Positions 24,985 through 62,186 of a stretch of 64,000 nucleotides of DNA are shown here, piece after piece. Under the pieces are notes generated by a model. It was not told the DNA's origin and did not search any database. It saw only the letters and a program-made list of their open reading frames with translations. Numbering within the stretch: position 1 is the first letter of the stretch; the number at the start of each line of letters is the position of its first letter. The position numbers and the translations under genes are program-made. The DNA comes from Croceicoccus sp. Ery15 (GTDB taxonomy: Bacteria; Pseudomonadota; Alphaproteobacteria; Sphingomonadales; Sphingomonadaceae): positions 1,593,501-1,657,500 of the forward strand of contig NZ_CP087588.1 in NCBI RefSeq assembly GCF_020985305.1, in the 5' to 3' direction.

Positions 24985-25030
24985 TTGGTTGCGGGGGTTG
25001 GATTTGAACCAACGACCTTCAGGTTATGAG
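24985..25030 (-). repeat. attL: displaced 3' part of tRNA-fMet
   Basis: These 46 bases equal 62109-62154 inside the tRNA-fMet gene except for one base (G at 24996, A at 62120). Identity stops abruptly in the anticodon loop. Joining this fragment to the 5' half of the tRNA at 62110-62186 restores a tRNA with a better acceptor pair (G-C in place of G-U). This fits an attB that was split when the island integrated. Confidence 0.85.
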
Positions 25031-25143: not shown

Positions 25144-25169
25144 CTTACTGTGCCAAAATTGTGCCAAAT
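25144..25169 (+). repeat. 26-bp arm-type repeat, left copy
   Basis: An exact 26-base direct repeat, also at 62039-62064. It contains TGTGCCAA twice, and another TGTGCCAA lies at 62024. It lies about 115 bases inside attL. Such repeats flanking the core are what one expects for integrase arm-binding sites, as in lambda-type integration. Confidence 0.65.
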
Positions 25170-25240: not shown

Positions 25241-26362
25241 ATGGCGACCATTCAAAAGAGAGATGGCAAGAACGGGCAAACTTACCGCGTGATGATCCGA
25301 ATGCACGGATATCCGCCAGTTCAGCGTACTTTTAAGCGGCTCACAGATGCAAAGGCGTGGGCTCAGGAGACTGAACTCAGCATGCGCCGTGGTGACATTC
25401 GGTCAACCGCCAGTGAAGCGAAGAAGCGCACTCTCAGTGATGTGATCGAAAAATACAAAGAGGACATCCTCCCCCATAAAGCCGTATCAAGCCAACGAGT
25501 GGAAACCACCTACCTGAACCACTGGGAGCGAGAGCTCGGCGAGTATGCGCTCTCCTTCCTGACCCATGAGATCATCAGCAAAAAGATTGCCCAGCTGACA
25601 CACGCGGGCGATCAGCGCGCACAGCTTGAGGAAGGTGAAAAGCCGACGAAACCGAAGTCGCGCAAGACGGTGAAGCACTACCGCGACAATCTGGAGATAC
25701 TGCTCAAGTTCGCCCAGAAGTGGGGATGGATCGGTTCAGCCAATCCGATGGAGGGTGTGAACAGGATTACGAAGGCGACCAAGGAGCGTGTTCGCTTCCT
25801 CGATGAAGACGAGCGCAAGGCCGTTTTGGCGGCGTGTAAGGCCAGCCCGAACAAGCAGCTCTTCGCAGTCGTCGTGTTTGCACTCTCGACAGGCGCTCGG
25901 AAGAACGAAATTTTGAAATTGACGCTCCGCGATCTCGATCTTGAGCGCCAGGTAGCGGTTCTGCGGGAAACCAAGAACCGCGAGACCCGCAAGGTGCCTA
26001 TTGTGAGCTTTCTCAAGGGGGTTCTGGAAGAGCACCTAGAGTGGCGCGAAAAGTATCTCGCGAAGCGCGAGATCAAGTCGGATTACCTTTTCCCGCGCAG
26101 CGACGGGAAAGGCCCGATTGATATTCGAAAAGCATGGGAGAACGCGCGTGAAAAAGCGGGCATCATTGACTTCCGCTTTCACGACCTACGCCACAGTGCC
26201 GCAAGCTACCTTGCGATGAACGGCGCAAGCCAGTTGGAGATTGCCGAGGTGCTAGGACACAAAACGCTTCAGATGGTGAAGCGATACTCGCACCTATCGG
26301 AAGACCACACTCGCGATGTGGTTGAAAAGATGAACGACAAAATCTTCGATATGGCTGACTGA
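25241..26362 (+). CDS. tyrosine recombinase, island integrase
   Basis: The 373-aa protein has an N-terminal AP2-like arm-binding region (QTYRVMIRMHGYPPVQRTFKR), a SAM-like core-binding domain (about 65-165) and the catalytic domain. Catalytic residues are Arg220 (STGARKNE), His314 and Arg317 (HDLRH), His340 (LGHKT) and Tyr349 (KRYSHLS). It sits at the left end next to attL, pointing inward, so it is the likely enzyme for insertion and excision at the tRNA. Confidence 0.93.
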   Translation: MATIQKRDGKNGQTYRVMIRMHGYPPVQRTFKRLTDAKAWAQETELSMRRGDIRSTASEAKKRTLSDVIEKYKEDILPHKAVSSQRVETTYLNHWERELGEYALSFLTHEIISKKIAQLTHAGDQRAQLEEGEKPTKPKSRKTVKHYRDNLEILLKFAQKWGWIGSANPMEGVNRITKATKERVRFLDEDERKAVLAACKASPNKQLFAVVVFALSTGARKNEILKLTLRDLDLERQVAVLRETKNRETRKVPIVSFLKGVLEEHLEWREKYLAKREIKSDYLFPRSDGKGPIDIRKAWENAREKAGIIDFRFHDLRHSAASYLAMNGASQLEIAEVLGHKTLQMVKRYSHLSEDHTRDVVEKMNDKIFDMAD

Positions 26363-44708: not shown

Positions 44709-45299
44709 CTATTGCCACATACGAGCAGCCAGTGTCCTTTCTTCCGGTCCCATAACATCGGCGTAAATGGCGGTGGTGCTGATCTGCGCATGGCCTAGCC
44801 AACGTTGGACCAGGTTGAGCGGAACGCCGGTGGAGACTGCGGCAACGCCAAAGCCGTGCCGAAGGCCTCGTGGCGTTGCGCGAGCACCCGCCACAATGCC
44901 TGCATCAGCCATAACCGCTTTGATATGCCGCCAAGCGACGGTGCGATCCATTGGCCACAACCGCCTTGAGCGGCCGCCACCTTCCTGTTTCCAGATGGTC
45001 GTCAACCCATGAACCCAGATAAGCTCGTTCATAAGGTCAGTAGGCACAGGAACAGCGCGAAAATGCCCCCGCCGCCGCTTCTTTAGACTTTCGAAGATGA
45101 GCATATTGTCAGTCGCATCGACCCTGTCCCCTGTAAGGGCTAGCGCTTCTGATATGCGGCACCCAGTCATTGCCAAAACTGCGCACAACGTCCGAATGCG
45201 TGGATTGCTATAGCGGGCCGCTGCGGCGAGAAATGCCTCGCGCTCCTGCTGGTTAAGATATTTGCGTTGTCCGTCACCTGCATACAATTGCCACGACAT
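44709..45299 (-). CDS. short tyrosine recombinase of FimB/FimE size
   Basis: The 196-aa protein is a catalytic domain only, close in length to the E. coli fim-switch recombinases. Catalytic residues are Arg48 (TGCRISE), Arg147 and His148 (RGLRHGF; Arg144 replaces the usual first His), His170 (LGHAQ) and Tyr179 (AIYADVM). CAGGAG before the ATG at 45299 fixes the start. The gene ends are free of other genes, and it begins only 104 bases from a segment bounded by perfect 22-bp inverted repeats, so it is the likely inverting enzyme. Confidence 0.85.
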   Translation of the reverse strand: MSWQLYAGDGQRKYLNQQEREAFLAAAARYSNPRIRTLCAVLAMTGCRISEALALTGDRVDATDNMLIFESLKKRRRGHFRAVPVPTDLMNELIWVHGLTTIWKQEGGGRSRRLWPMDRTVAWRHIKAVMADAGIVAGARATPRGLRHGFGVAAVSTGVPLNLVQRWLGHAQISTTAIYADVMGPEERTLAARMWQ

Positions 45300-45402
45300 G
45301 GTTTTTCTCCTGTTGTTATGAACAAGCAAAAACCACTTTCTCTATCAGTCTATGAAGGATTTAGGTGAGAGTCTATTGCGCCTTGCACGCCTTTCAGCGC
45401 CC

Positions 45403-45560
45403 GCAACAAAATCACCAATAATGTTGCAATCCAACAAGACGCTTATTTTTCATATACTTAACTAATGCATAGAGATTTTTCAGCAATTTTTTGTGGCCCG
45501 CTTCATAAAGTTATGTGTATATTATTATTAGTATAATCACATTATTGGTGATTTTGTTGC
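45403..45560. promoter_or_regulatory. predicted invertible promoter segment
   Basis: Perfect 22-bp inverted repeats (45403-45424 and 45539-45560, starting GCAACAAAATCACC) bound 114 AT-rich bases. A perfect TATAAT (45532-45537) just inside the right repeat faces the secreted-protein operon 50 bases away; its -35 element is weak. A short tyrosine recombinase gene lies next to the left repeat. Inversion would turn the promoter away from the operon, so the present orientation looks ON. Confidence 0.75.
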
Positions 45561-45587
45561 AAATAATAGGAGCAAACACATGAAATG

Positions 45588-46298
45588 ATGAATTTTAAAT
45601 CTTTACAAGAAAATGGCCTTTTACTTTCTTTATGTTTATTAGGTTCGACAAGCTTTAGCCACGCCACTCACGCACAGAGCAGTGCCCTCATCACCAGCGG
45701 AATGGGCGGTGGGGCATCAAGCACGGCGCGCCTCAGTGCGATCCAAGCACACCAGATGAACCGCCTCTACGCCGCCGAGAGCTGTGGCAGCCTGGGCCAA
45801 TTTTATGGTCCCGCTTTCGCAGGAGACAAGGATGCGCAAGACTGCTTGAATGACCTTCGCATCACAGCCGAGGGTAACATTGGCGTTGGCACGCCTGCCC
45901 CCGAAGAAAAGCTTCACGTCACCGGCAACGTGAAGATTGACGGGACGCTCGCTGCCAGCGTGGAAGCCCCGATCGAGAACACCGATATAGCTAACAAAGA
46001 GTACGTGGACACGACCATCGCCGCTGCGGGCGGAGGTGGAGGTCGCGGACTCGTTATATGGGGCTCTGCGGGCTGCCCGACCGACTGGACTCAAGCCTAT
46101 AGCGGAAGAGCAGTTGCTGCCCATATCGCGAAGTCCGACTTGGACCCCAATGCGTGGCAAACCGATCTGAGTAGCCTAATTTGCGTCGCGAACACCTTTG
46201 CTTTCGGGACTGGTTATGGCCCATCGCTAGTTTGGAACGACGGCTCCGGACGAGTTAAGAAATCACTATTGCTAGGCTGCGCGCTTTGCGTGCAATAA
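45588..46298 (+). CDS. secreted fibre-like protein with shared C-terminal domain
   Basis: The product (236 aa from the ATG at 45588; another ATG at 45585) has a signal peptide ending near SHATHAQ. Residues about 95-150 carry patterns common in phage tail fibres and pilus-tip adhesins (GNIGVGTPAPEEKLHVTGNVKIDG, NKEYVDTTI). A Gly run leads to a C-terminal domain (GLVIWGSAGCPTDWTQAYSGRAV ... GCALCVQ) that recurs in the next gene. It is probably exposed at the surface. It is the first gene behind the invertible promoter. Confidence 0.7.
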   Translation: MNFKSLQENGLLLSLCLLGSTSFSHATHAQSSALITSGMGGGASSTARLSAIQAHQMNRLYAAESCGSLGQFYGPAFAGDKDAQDCLNDLRITAEGNIGVGTPAPEEKLHVTGNVKIDGTLAASVEAPIENTDIANKEYVDTTIAAAGGGGGRGLVIWGSAGCPTDWTQAYSGRAVAAHIAKSDLDPNAWQTDLSSLICVANTFAFGTGYGPSLVWNDGSGRVKKSLLLGCALCVQ

Positions 46299-46313: not shown

Positions 46314-46790
46314 ATGTCGTTATTTTTAAATGTCTTTTCGTTTCTTGCTTTCGCGCTTTTATTCGTATCGTTTCATTTTAATGAACGCGGGAACGAACGT
46401 CCGAATTCATACGCAGCCTTCGCCACATCTATCCCAGCTCCAGATGAAAGCAAGCCGACGATTCATGCCGTCGCGGCGGGCACCAATGGTGGAGCGGGCA
46501 TTACCATTTGGGGGACTACAAACTGTCCAGAGGACTGGTCCGCAGTCTATGTCGGAAAAGCGATTGTCGCATCTGGAGTTGCTGAATCGGGCTCAGGGAT
46601 ATCGATGCTTTACGGTTTGACCAACACAGTATGCGCCGCTGGTCTCGGAGCGTTTAACGAATTTGACTACCGCTCAAACTATAGCACTCAGAACGATTTG
46701 AGATGGCTGGACGGTATGGCAGATCGCCCATCGGCATCAAGCGGAAATACAGCGATCCCCTGCGCCCTTTGCATAAAACAAGTTGATTGA
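46314..46790 (+). CDS. secreted or membrane-anchored protein sharing the IWG-CPxDW domain
   Basis: The 158-aa protein has an N-terminal hydrophobic anchor or signal (FLNVFSFLAFALLFVSFHF) and then the same C-terminal domain as its upstream neighbour: GITIWGTTNCPEDWSAVYVGKAIV ... CALCIKQ. The conserved Cys residues (CPxDW, a central Cys, CALC) suggest disulfides. It lacks the fibre-like middle part. It starts 15 bases after the previous stop. No known family comes to mind. Confidence 0.7.
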   Translation: MSLFLNVFSFLAFALLFVSFHFNERGNERPNSYAAFATSIPAPDESKPTIHAVAAGTNGGAGITIWGTTNCPEDWSAVYVGKAIVASGVAESGSGISMLYGLTNTVCAAGLGAFNEFDYRSNYSTQNDLRWLDGMADRPSASSGNTAIPCALCIKQVD

Positions 46791-46798
46791 GGAGAATA

Positions 46799-47314
46799 AT
46801 GAAATACGACGCATTAATTATATCATTTTTTGTGGCTTTGTTAGTCTCAGCCCCGCCCTCTCTCTGGGCAGATGAGGTCTCGGCCTCTTGTATAATCTCT
46901 GACGCCAGAATTTTTGGCTCATCACTAGAGCCTATTGTAGAACGCGGATCCGTGCTGAGGGTTGCTAAGGGCGAATGCTCCATTGAGATCGAGCGAAATT
47001 CTCTAGTGCTTTTTCGCTCAGGCGCAATGTCGAAGCCTATCATCAAACAAGTGCGCGGTTTGGGTGGTGATACCCTTGAACTCAAAGATGGCAACGTTCT
47101 AGTTAATGAAAAAAAGCTAAGCACCGCGACCGGCAAGCCCTTCTCGCTATCTGAGGAGCGTCAAGCCGTGCTGCACATGTATGTGCGGGACTACAACGGC
47201 ATCATCCCCGAAAACACATTCTTGTTGCTGGGCACGAACCCGGCTGGTGCGCTTGACAGCACTCGCCTGGGCCTCATCCACCGGAATGACATTATCGGCG
47301 TTGTGAAGCCCTAG
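46799..47314 (+). CDS. signal-peptidase-like (S26/TraF type) exported protein
   Basis: The 171-aa protein has a signal peptide (MKYDALIISFFVALLVSAPPSLWA) and an S26-like core. The likely Ser-Lys pair is Ser42 (SSLEPIVERGS) and Lys83 (KQVRGLGGDTLELKDGNVLVN), matching the S-x-x-P and K-x-V-x-G-x-x-GD patterns of LepB and TraF. It may process the neighbouring secreted proteins in the periplasm. AGGAG precedes the ATG at 46799, eight bases after the upstream stop. Confidence 0.7.
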   Translation: MKYDALIISFFVALLVSAPPSLWADEVSASCIISDARIFGSSLEPIVERGSVLRVAKGECSIEIERNSLVLFRSGAMSKPIIKQVRGLGGDTLELKDGNVLVNEKKLSTATGKPFSLSEERQAVLHMYVRDYNGIIPENTFLLLGTNPAGALDSTRLGLIHRNDIIGVVKP

Positions 47315-47387: not shown

Positions 47388-47416
47388 AATTGAACCGAAA
47401 TAGGAAATCATATGCT

Positions 47417-48205
47417 TTGAAACTTCGCACGATCTTTATGGCAGCTTTCATACTCTCGACATGCTCACAAATGGCTCAAGCTCAGAGCATGAGCGCACGG
47501 GGCATTGGCAGCAGTAGCACTGAAGCGACCTTTGATCGCTGCGCACAGAGAGCGCCCAGCGTGAAACAGCGAGCGCTCCTAATTGAGCGGCGCATTCAGA
47601 TCATTCTCAACTGCCACAACCAAGGCCAGCTGTACGACCCGCAGCAAGACGTCTGCATTATGCCTGATTTCTCGCCAAATCACCGCTTCACTTCCCGTCC
47701 CTATGGGGACACTTTGGTTCTCCAGAACCCAGATGGTACATGGGGGGAGGAAGTAACCCTCGGAGGGAATGTCGGCGGCAGCGTGACATGTGTTGAACAA
47801 CCGGTAGCTGTTTCACCCGTGGCGGCACCTCCGGTCAGTGCGGCACCGCCGCCGATAACTCCGCCGTCGACAAAGCCGCCAGCGTGCTCATCAGATGAAG
47901 GAAGGTCTTGTTGCCCTTACACCTCTTGCAGCTCCAACGGCACGGTTCAGTGCAACGGGAGCTGTTCGGGAGCAGTCGAGCAACCCGCGTGCGCGGCAAG
48001 CACGGGCGGTTCATGTTGTCCCTATGACGCATGCAGCTCGAACGGCACGGTCCAATGCAATGGGAGCTGTGCGGGGGCTGTCGAAGACACTGGTCCGCCG
48101 TGTAGAACCATCACGATATGTCCGCCAATATGTGTGCCAGGGCCTCACGGCGAATGCCAATCCGAAGAACCCGGGCCATGTCATTCCTTCGAGATATGCG
48201 ATTAA
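47417..48205 (+). CDS. secreted Cys-rich protein with tandem repeats
   Basis: From the TTG at 47417 the product is 262 aa with signal peptide MKLRTIFMAAFILSTCSQMAQA; a TTG at 47390 would add nine residues. A Pro/Ala/Val linker (residues about 140-165) leads to two repeats of about 34 residues with the pattern CCPYxxCSSNGTVQCNGSCxGAVE, then a final Cys-rich tail ending CHSFEICD. The many cysteines indicate a disulfide-bonded extracellular protein. No known family is recognised. It is the last gene of the phase-variable operon. Confidence 0.65.
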   Translation: MKLRTIFMAAFILSTCSQMAQAQSMSARGIGSSSTEATFDRCAQRAPSVKQRALLIERRIQIILNCHNQGQLYDPQQDVCIMPDFSPNHRFTSRPYGDTLVLQNPDGTWGEEVTLGGNVGGSVTCVEQPVAVSPVAAPPVSAAPPPITPPSTKPPACSSDEGRSCCPYTSCSSNGTVQCNGSCSGAVEQPACAASTGGSCCPYDACSSNGTVQCNGSCAGAVEDTGPPCRTITICPPICVPGPHGECQSEEPGPCHSFEICD

Positions 48206-62038: not shown

Positions 62039-62064
62039 CTTACTGTGCCAAAATTGTGCCAAAT
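62039..62064 (+). repeat. 26-bp arm-type repeat, right copy
   Basis: Exact copy of 25144-25169 in the same orientation, 45 bases from attR. Its place between the two tRNA genes indicates that the island end is at the tRNA at 62110, not at the one at 61862. Confidence 0.65.

Positions 62065-62108: not shown

Positions 62109-62186
<78 letters not shown>

Follow-up and report, generated by a model that had tools for sequence, protein, structure and literature searches.

A candidate inversion switch with paired recombinase core sites upstream of a PilV-like operon on a mobilizable element

Does the short inverted-repeat segment between a small tyrosine recombinase gene and a divergent operon of secreted proteins act as an inversion switch? 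The segment lies in the 64,000-nucleotide stretch of DNA analysed here, which we call the window, and an earlier note, made from its letters, had predicted an invertible promoter that turns the operon on and off. We compared the locus with regions around related recombinases, and these comparisons make it probable that the segment is part of a fim-like inversion switch, in which the adjacent recombinase, not itself of the Fim family, would invert the segment at two core sites and so control the divergent operon.

The repeat that first drew attention to the locus is as the earlier note described it: the two 22-bp arms, at 45403-45424 and 45539-45560, are perfectly complementary (22/22) and lie 114 nt apart, and the segment between them has an AT content of 71%, compared with 41% for the window and 42% and 44% for the two flanking genes. 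It is the sole perfect inverted repeat of at least 18 bp in the 64-kb window at spacings of 20 bp to 1.5 kb. The segment is flanked on its left by the 196-aa recombinase gene, transcribed leftward, and on its right by the operon, transcribed rightward. No DNA-level relatives of the locus were found in plasmids or in phages, and the 22-bp arm was found in no viral contig. The features of the putative switch are as follows.

44709-45299, minus strand: gene for a tyrosine recombinase of 196 aa (PF00589), barely more than a catalytic domain; the proposed inversion enzyme
45402-45428, plus strand: recombinase-proximal core site, CGCAACAAAAT-CACCA-ATAATGTTGCA (11-5-11), a near-palindrome running on from the left arm
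45418-45545, no strand: proposed invertible segment, measured spacer to spacer; presumed carrier of a putative promoter
45532-45537, plus strand: TATAAT hexamer, overlapping the distal core site, without a -35 hexamer
45535-45561, minus strand: operon-proximal core site, reading TGCAACAAAAT-CACCA-ATAATGTGATT on this strand, with a degenerate inner half-site

The locus is carried by a mobile element. Two 34-bp direct repeats and an integrase gene mark an approximately 37-kb mobilizable element, integrated at a tRNA-Met gene and extending from 24997 to 62154.

24997-25030: 34-bp direct repeat, left end of the element
62121-62154: 34-bp direct repeat, right end of the element, inside the tRNA-Met gene at 62110-62186

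A second direct repeat, of 26 bp, is present at 25144-25169 and 62039-62064, and the element's integrase (373 aa) is encoded at 25241-26362. Mobilization functions are represented by a MobA/VirD2-type relaxase, a NikA-like protein and two VirD4/TraG-type coupling proteins; a Pfam scan of 29 distinct proteins of the window showed no other type IV secretion components. The cargo includes type I restriction-modification genes, ArdC, DUF736 and DUF2958 proteins, and a HipA-like protein.

The 196-aa protein is a tyrosine recombinase, as had been proposed for the gene at 44709-45299: it matches PF00589 with an E-value of 1.5e-18 over residues 14-182, and residues R48, K73, R147, H148, H170 and Y179, which have catalytic roles in tyrosine recombinases, were invariant in 45/45 aligned rows, FimB and FimE included, so that the conserved catalytic residues of a tyrosine recombinase are intact. 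The suggested closeness to FimB was not borne out. Scores with the FimB/FimE models fell far below their cut-offs (PRK09871, 35.4 bits against 222; PRK09870, 32.3 bits against 221), and the K-12 FimB and FimE proteins form a long outside branch of the tree; membership of the FimB/FimE family was rejected on these grounds. In this tree, which was computed without the 18 recombinase loci added later, the window recombinase stands beside a plasmid clade (94/86, not starred), and the two together fall inside a group of plasmid rows and rows with both sites upstream of the recombinase gene (98/84, starred), apart from those in which the sites bracket that gene.

Of 397 genomes in the window's family, 18 had a member of the recombinase family (E <= 1e-25), as did 16 of 385 genomes of its class (E <= 1e-20); within its genus, the recombinase was present in 1 of 14 genomes. 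Each count includes the window's own genome. A tblastn search of plasmids gave 1758 records; the best among the matches listed were 57.5% identical and lay on Acetobacteraceae plasmids. Neither the recombinase nor the first operon protein was confirmed in any viral contig. The best-scoring relatives, at loci L108 (61%) and L109 (58%), are both in genome G580 of another family, and the third-best, L110, is also 58% identical. Neighbouring genes at various loci encode EAL, chaperone-usher, flagellin or PilV-like proteins. One locus, L052 (G169:C2:304000-323900), has two outward-pointing copies of the recombinase gene, 84% identical, one with an in-frame TAG; each copy has its own site pair, and the approximately 14-kb stretch that they enclose gives weak traG- and relaxase-like matches.

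Inspection of the inverted repeat revealed that each 22-bp arm lies inside a 27-bp core site composed of two 11-bp half-sites and a 5-bp spacer. Read from left to right, the operon-proximal site is AATCACATTAT-TGGTG-ATTTTGTTGCA, and its spacer is identical to the CACCA of the other site in inverted orientation. Such paired, inverted sites with an identical spacer are characteristic of conservative site-specific recombination. The GCAACA half-sites of the recombinase-proximal site recur at L003, L053 and L120. A pattern for the full site (10-5-10) matched at one place in the 3.63-Mb genome and nowhere else.

It had been proposed that the repeat pair be sought beside homologous recombinases, and spacer-matched inverted core sites were indeed found at the same place in relatives. 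We examined 61 recombinase regions (43, and 18 more), which are not independent of one another (G391 and G144, for example, contain near-copies). Both sites lay upstream of the recombinase gene in 19 regions, the window included; they bracketed the gene in 20; and neither arrangement was seen in 22, these assignments being a judgement across several scans rather than the outcome of a single threshold, with L002 and L058 the weakest upstream members. The distance between sites is 99-127 bp in the upstream layout, and that between arms is 665-934 bp in the bracketing layout. The 22 regions with neither layout include 10 loci of the plasmid clade, and parA and/or rep genes adjoin six of these.

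Palindrome pairs with identical inverted spacers and at least 18/27 identity were present in 6 of 43 upstream regions, at spacings of 131-147, compared with 1 of 1720 block shuffles; the site definitions used here were fixed after the first pairs had been inspected, and the 18/27 limit excluded two pairs of 12/27 identity (L041b, inverted; L067, direct). The window is absent from these six pairs, since the degeneracy of its distal site kept it from passing the filter. In a scan that disregarded the spacer, 12 of 61 regions, the window now among them, contained a partner in inverted orientation whose half-sites matched at 15/22 positions or more; the same was true of 6 of 1220 shuffles. The spacers matched at 5/5 positions in 11 of these 12 pairs, and mismatches were much rarer in spacers (4/60) than in half-sites (65/264, or 25%; Fisher p 0.0014), counts in which the misregistered pair of L002 is retained. 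Control ORF starts away from recombinases had a partner in 1 of 321 cases, with a spacer match of 2/5; this control was drawn from 25 loci after removal of ORFs within 700 bp of a recombinase (63 excluded), and before that exclusion, when ORFs adjoining the sites still contaminated it, the figure was 9 of 369, and spacers matched in 8 of the 9. At least 15/22 half-site identity was likewise reached by 11 of 61 regions in the direct register, since the sites are palindromic, but there the spacers matched at 2/5 positions at most. Spacers differ from locus to locus (CACCA, TCACA, GCACA, GGCGG, TACCA, TACTA, TCTGA and others) and yet agree within each locus, L002 being one base off, as would be expected if strand exchange preserved them.

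Two sets of loci count against a switch. None of the 10 plasmid-clade loci has a spacer-matched inverted pair, although the window recombinase groups with them; at L065 the arms of an inverted repeat of 12 bp are 80 bp apart, and two palindromes with unlike spacers occur at L063 and at L064. Likewise, L110 has no inverted pair and one perfect palindrome, 402 bp upstream. Separately, weakly matching inverted sites were noted upstream of a recombinase gene in Methylobacterium radiotolerans (L058, NZ_CP090580.1:37232-45783); an HTH gene and a flagellin gene come after it.

The earlier note would have counted it as a refutation if no read or related genome ever showed the reversed orientation; among related loci, an inversion was seen in one of the two layouts. 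In the bracketing layout, comparison of L046 (G201:C1:131000-143000) with L048 (G242:C1:651000-663000) revealed an inversion of an approximately 850-bp segment around the recombinase gene, adjoining an EAL gene. The flanks of these loci are colinear (left, 403/473 identical, 0.85; right, 393/496, 0.79), and the inner segment aligns with 675/845 identities when reversed, versus 254/517 in 1178 columns when it is not; the half-sites inside the spacers are swapped between the two ends. Five homologous loci of this kind come from a single genus (g85); three of them, L045, L047 and L049, have the colinear arrangement of L048, leaving L046 as the inverted one. The genomes of L046 and L048 represent different species, and the inversion is therefore one between lineages, not within a culture. 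In the upstream layout, no flipped copy was found: all 9 of the 9 segment pairs with a best local-alignment score of at least 14 were in the same orientation, which counts against frequent flipping or would fit a biased switch. The window locus itself is known in one orientation, from one assembly. An apparent opposite orientation of the window segment relative to L052, L052b and L055, based on a shared TTTCAT..ACTTAACT motif, was set aside, since its summed score was reached by 175 of 2000 shuffles and is not significant; similarity in the same orientation to L108 and L109 reached a score matched by 29 of 2000 shuffles, but the best match was out of register and we give it no weight. EAL genes are neighbours of many recombinases of the bracketing layout, and chaperone-usher genes of a few; in Sphingomonas parapaucimobilis (L061, NZ_CP155750.1:690632-701207), where inverted 27-bp sites bracket the recombinase gene, an EAL gene and a pilus operon of the chaperone-usher/SCPU type both lie beside it.

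Taken together, the matched inverted sites in relatives, the inversion between L046 and L048, and a distant locus of the same layout speak for the predicted switch; the single orientation at the window and the lack of a flipped upstream copy among the loci compared speak against it.

The promoter component of the earlier prediction fared less well. A TATAAT is present on the plus strand, facing the operon, but as a promoter it is no more than a letter match: the hexamers 15-19 nt upstream of it fit TTGACA at 0-2 of 6 positions, and a sigma-70 promoter scan of 45250-45650 gave 0 sites, versus a mean of 1.8 in shuffles, a result that counts against a switch. The position of the operon favours a promoter in the segment on other grounds. 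The first operon ORF starts at 45585 or 45588. With only 24-27 bases between this start and the outer arm, there is scarcely space for a promoter beyond the segment, and the operon promoter is therefore expected to lie in the segment or to fire out of it. Similarly, the target ORF begins about 11-27 bases beyond the outer site in the window and at L109, L122 and L055, so that the promoter should lie in the segment. About 150 bp separate the site from the start of the target ORF at L108, which could have a promoter of its own, and this counts against a switch. A TTGACT motif within the segment, facing the recombinase, was present at L003, L052, L052b and L055 (four loci in three genomes); the earlier note's suggestion that inversion may redirect the promoter toward the recombinase would fit these loci.

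The target had been described as a secreted-protein operon. Judged by eye from their N-termini, operon proteins are indeed secreted, and the operon proved to be more specific than claimed, in that it encodes PilV-like modular proteins. Its four genes, and the start region preceding them, are as follows.

45568-45572, plus strand: AGGAG, resembling a ribosome-binding site (by eye), preceding ATGs at 45580, 45585 and 45588
45585-46298, plus strand: PilV-like modular protein, 237 aa, secreted (by eye), with a constant N-terminal domain and an exchangeable C-terminal module
46314-46790, plus strand: second protein, 158 aa, with the same kind of C-terminal module, assigned by similarity to the first protein
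46787-47314, plus strand: S26 signal peptidase (PF10502; TIGR02227)
47390-48205, plus strand: Cys-rich protein, 271 aa, secreted (by eye), with a C-terminal module common to P0021

A two-codon ORF (ATG AAA TGA) at 45580-45588, behind the AGGAG, extends into the beginning of the first operon gene. The first operon protein itself gave no Pfam or NCBIfam match, Shufflon_N and PilV domains included, no plasmid match at E <= 1e-5, and a match in 1 of 397 family genomes, which is its own. Its N-terminal part was matched by 24 of 35 other family matches (a manual count), among them proteins with Shufflon_N and S74 modules; P0004, P0007 and P0018 share this N-terminus and carry PF04917, and NCBI names P0018 PilV. 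The second protein is 30% identical to the first over 127 aa (residues 122-237 of the first; E 2.6e-10). The Cys-rich protein is 78% identical over 32 aa (E 2.1e-10) to the C-terminal module of P0021, which bears the constant N-terminal domain; its own N-terminus fails against the constant-domain model (E 1.7). The signal peptidase scored 71.8 bits with TIGR02227 (cut-off 47) and 37.2 bits with TIGR02771 (TraF_Ti), under the cut-off of 100.25. At L108 and L109, where site pairs lie between recombinase and divergent gene as in the window, the proteins of the divergent genes match the constant domain with i-Evalues of 4.5e-7 and 1.6e-7 (in a space of 5000). No match to the PilV-like domain model was obtained with the secreted proteins encoded divergently at L003, L053 and L055, which counts against the switch. 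Matches to the PilV-like family also lie at the very beginnings of two G459 contigs, 19 bases into C18 and 16 bases into C23, which looks like an assembly interrupted by variable or repeated DNA.

Other readings of the paired sites must be weighed against a switch. The recombinase may simply bind both sites and loop the DNA, repressing its own promoter, that of the operon or both, without frequent inversion. Such a static operator would account for the uniform orientation of the 9 comparable upstream-layout pairs, for sites that adjoin the recombinase start, and for the TTGACT that faces the recombinase at L003, L052, L052b and L055. It would not account for spacers that are matched far better than half-sites, which strand exchange needs and binding alone does not, nor for the direct register, where 15/22 half-site identity in 11 of 61 regions goes with a spacer match of 2/5 or less; moreover, related enzymes are located in inverted segments with such sites. 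We regard this explanation as unlikely, though the strongest of the alternatives.

Considerably less probable is derivation of the recombinase from plasmid resolvases, with the repeat as a remnant of a res or att site for multimer resolution or integration. The nearest tree neighbours are indeed plasmid recombinases, with parA and/or rep genes beside six of them, but two sites in inverted orientation do not permit dimer resolution by deletion, a 373-aa integrase and direct repeats at both ends already belong to the element, and the spacer-matched inverted pair is found at 0 of 10 plasmid-clade loci. Least credible, and disfavoured by us, is a MITE-like insertion of 158 bp that has nothing to do with the recombinase: the segment is short and AT-rich, with perfect terminal repeats, as such an insertion would be, yet there is a single match in the genome, no target-site duplication is seen by eye in the flanks, and the equivalent sites of relatives surround other segments. 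A shufflon of the Rci type was also considered and rejected, there being one upstream non-coding site pair and no second 10-5-10 match in the genome.

We return to the inversion switch, for which we infer the following course of events. The two inverted core sites would serve as substrates of the adjacent recombinase, and recombination across the 5-bp spacer (CACCA/TGGTG) would invert the AT-rich segment of about 128 bp. A promoter in the segment, or firing out of it, would thereby be turned toward or away from the operon, switching it on or off, and the adhesin-like proteins of the operon would vary in phase. Because TTGACT faces the recombinase within the segments of L003, L052, L052b and L055, we also entertain, tentatively and with less than even confidence, a more elaborate arrangement: one invertible promoter may serve two targets, the recombinase in one orientation and the divergent PilV-like operon in the other, so that the enzyme would be off when the adhesin is on and the state would be latched. 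The outcome would be phase-variable recognition of mates or surfaces, by one branch of an uncharted, two-layout family of alphaproteobacterial switches. This two-target layout is a testable latch design, and the site anatomy provides a handle for discovery of such switches from sequence. Being on a mobilizable element, such a switch might govern mating or contact between cells.

Enteric and gut bacteria supply the best-known inversion switches. A genome-wide survey gives inversion signatures in 0 of its 4 alphaproteobacterial samples (PMC5903667). No system of the present kind was among the listed matches of our searches of open-access literature on invertible promoters and phase variation (sphingomonads, Methylobacterium, Alphaproteobacteria, conjugative elements, PilV, small plasmid resolvases), which is no proof of novelty. 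Several known systems nevertheless share parts of the arrangement. Like the window with its proposed inversion, the Rci shufflon of plasmid R64 flips DNA beside PilV-type genes carried by a mobile element; PilV is described as a tip adhesin deciding recipient specificity, and the asymmetric sfx sites (12-7-12) are where Rci swaps the coding segments for C-termini (PMC11852207). In the window, unlike R64, a single segment without coding sequence, bounded by near-symmetric 11-5-11 sites, lies upstream of the gene, an arrangement that points to on/off control. Bacteroidales integrative conjugative elements carry an invertase with an invertible promoter whose targets are antibiotic-resistance genes (PMC8748976). 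They resemble the window, with its proposed invertase and putative invertible promoter, in carrying such a pair on a mobile element, and differ from it in phylum and in target. The bracketing relatives (L036, L046, L048 and L061, for example) are like Hin in that the segment encloses the gene of its own recombinase. They use tyrosine recombinases, in contrast to Hin, which belongs to the serine recombinases, and the window itself has the upstream layout. A passage of the survey cites Hin as a case of a recombinase within an invertible segment (PMC5903667).

The closest comparison is with the E. coli fim switch, in which, according to a review, fimS measures 314 bp and has 9-bp repeats (PMC9820224). 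As in fim, a small tyrosine recombinase gene lies beside a segment with short inverted repeats, upstream of an operon for a presumably surface-located structure. Unlike fim, the window has one recombinase, not closely related to FimB or FimE, 27-bp core sites that share 22 perfect bases around a segment of about 128 bp, and a divergent arrangement of recombinase and target, the target being PilV-like rather than chaperone-usher and located on a mobilizable element. The candidate switch of the window would work like fim but is not a FimB/FimE member.
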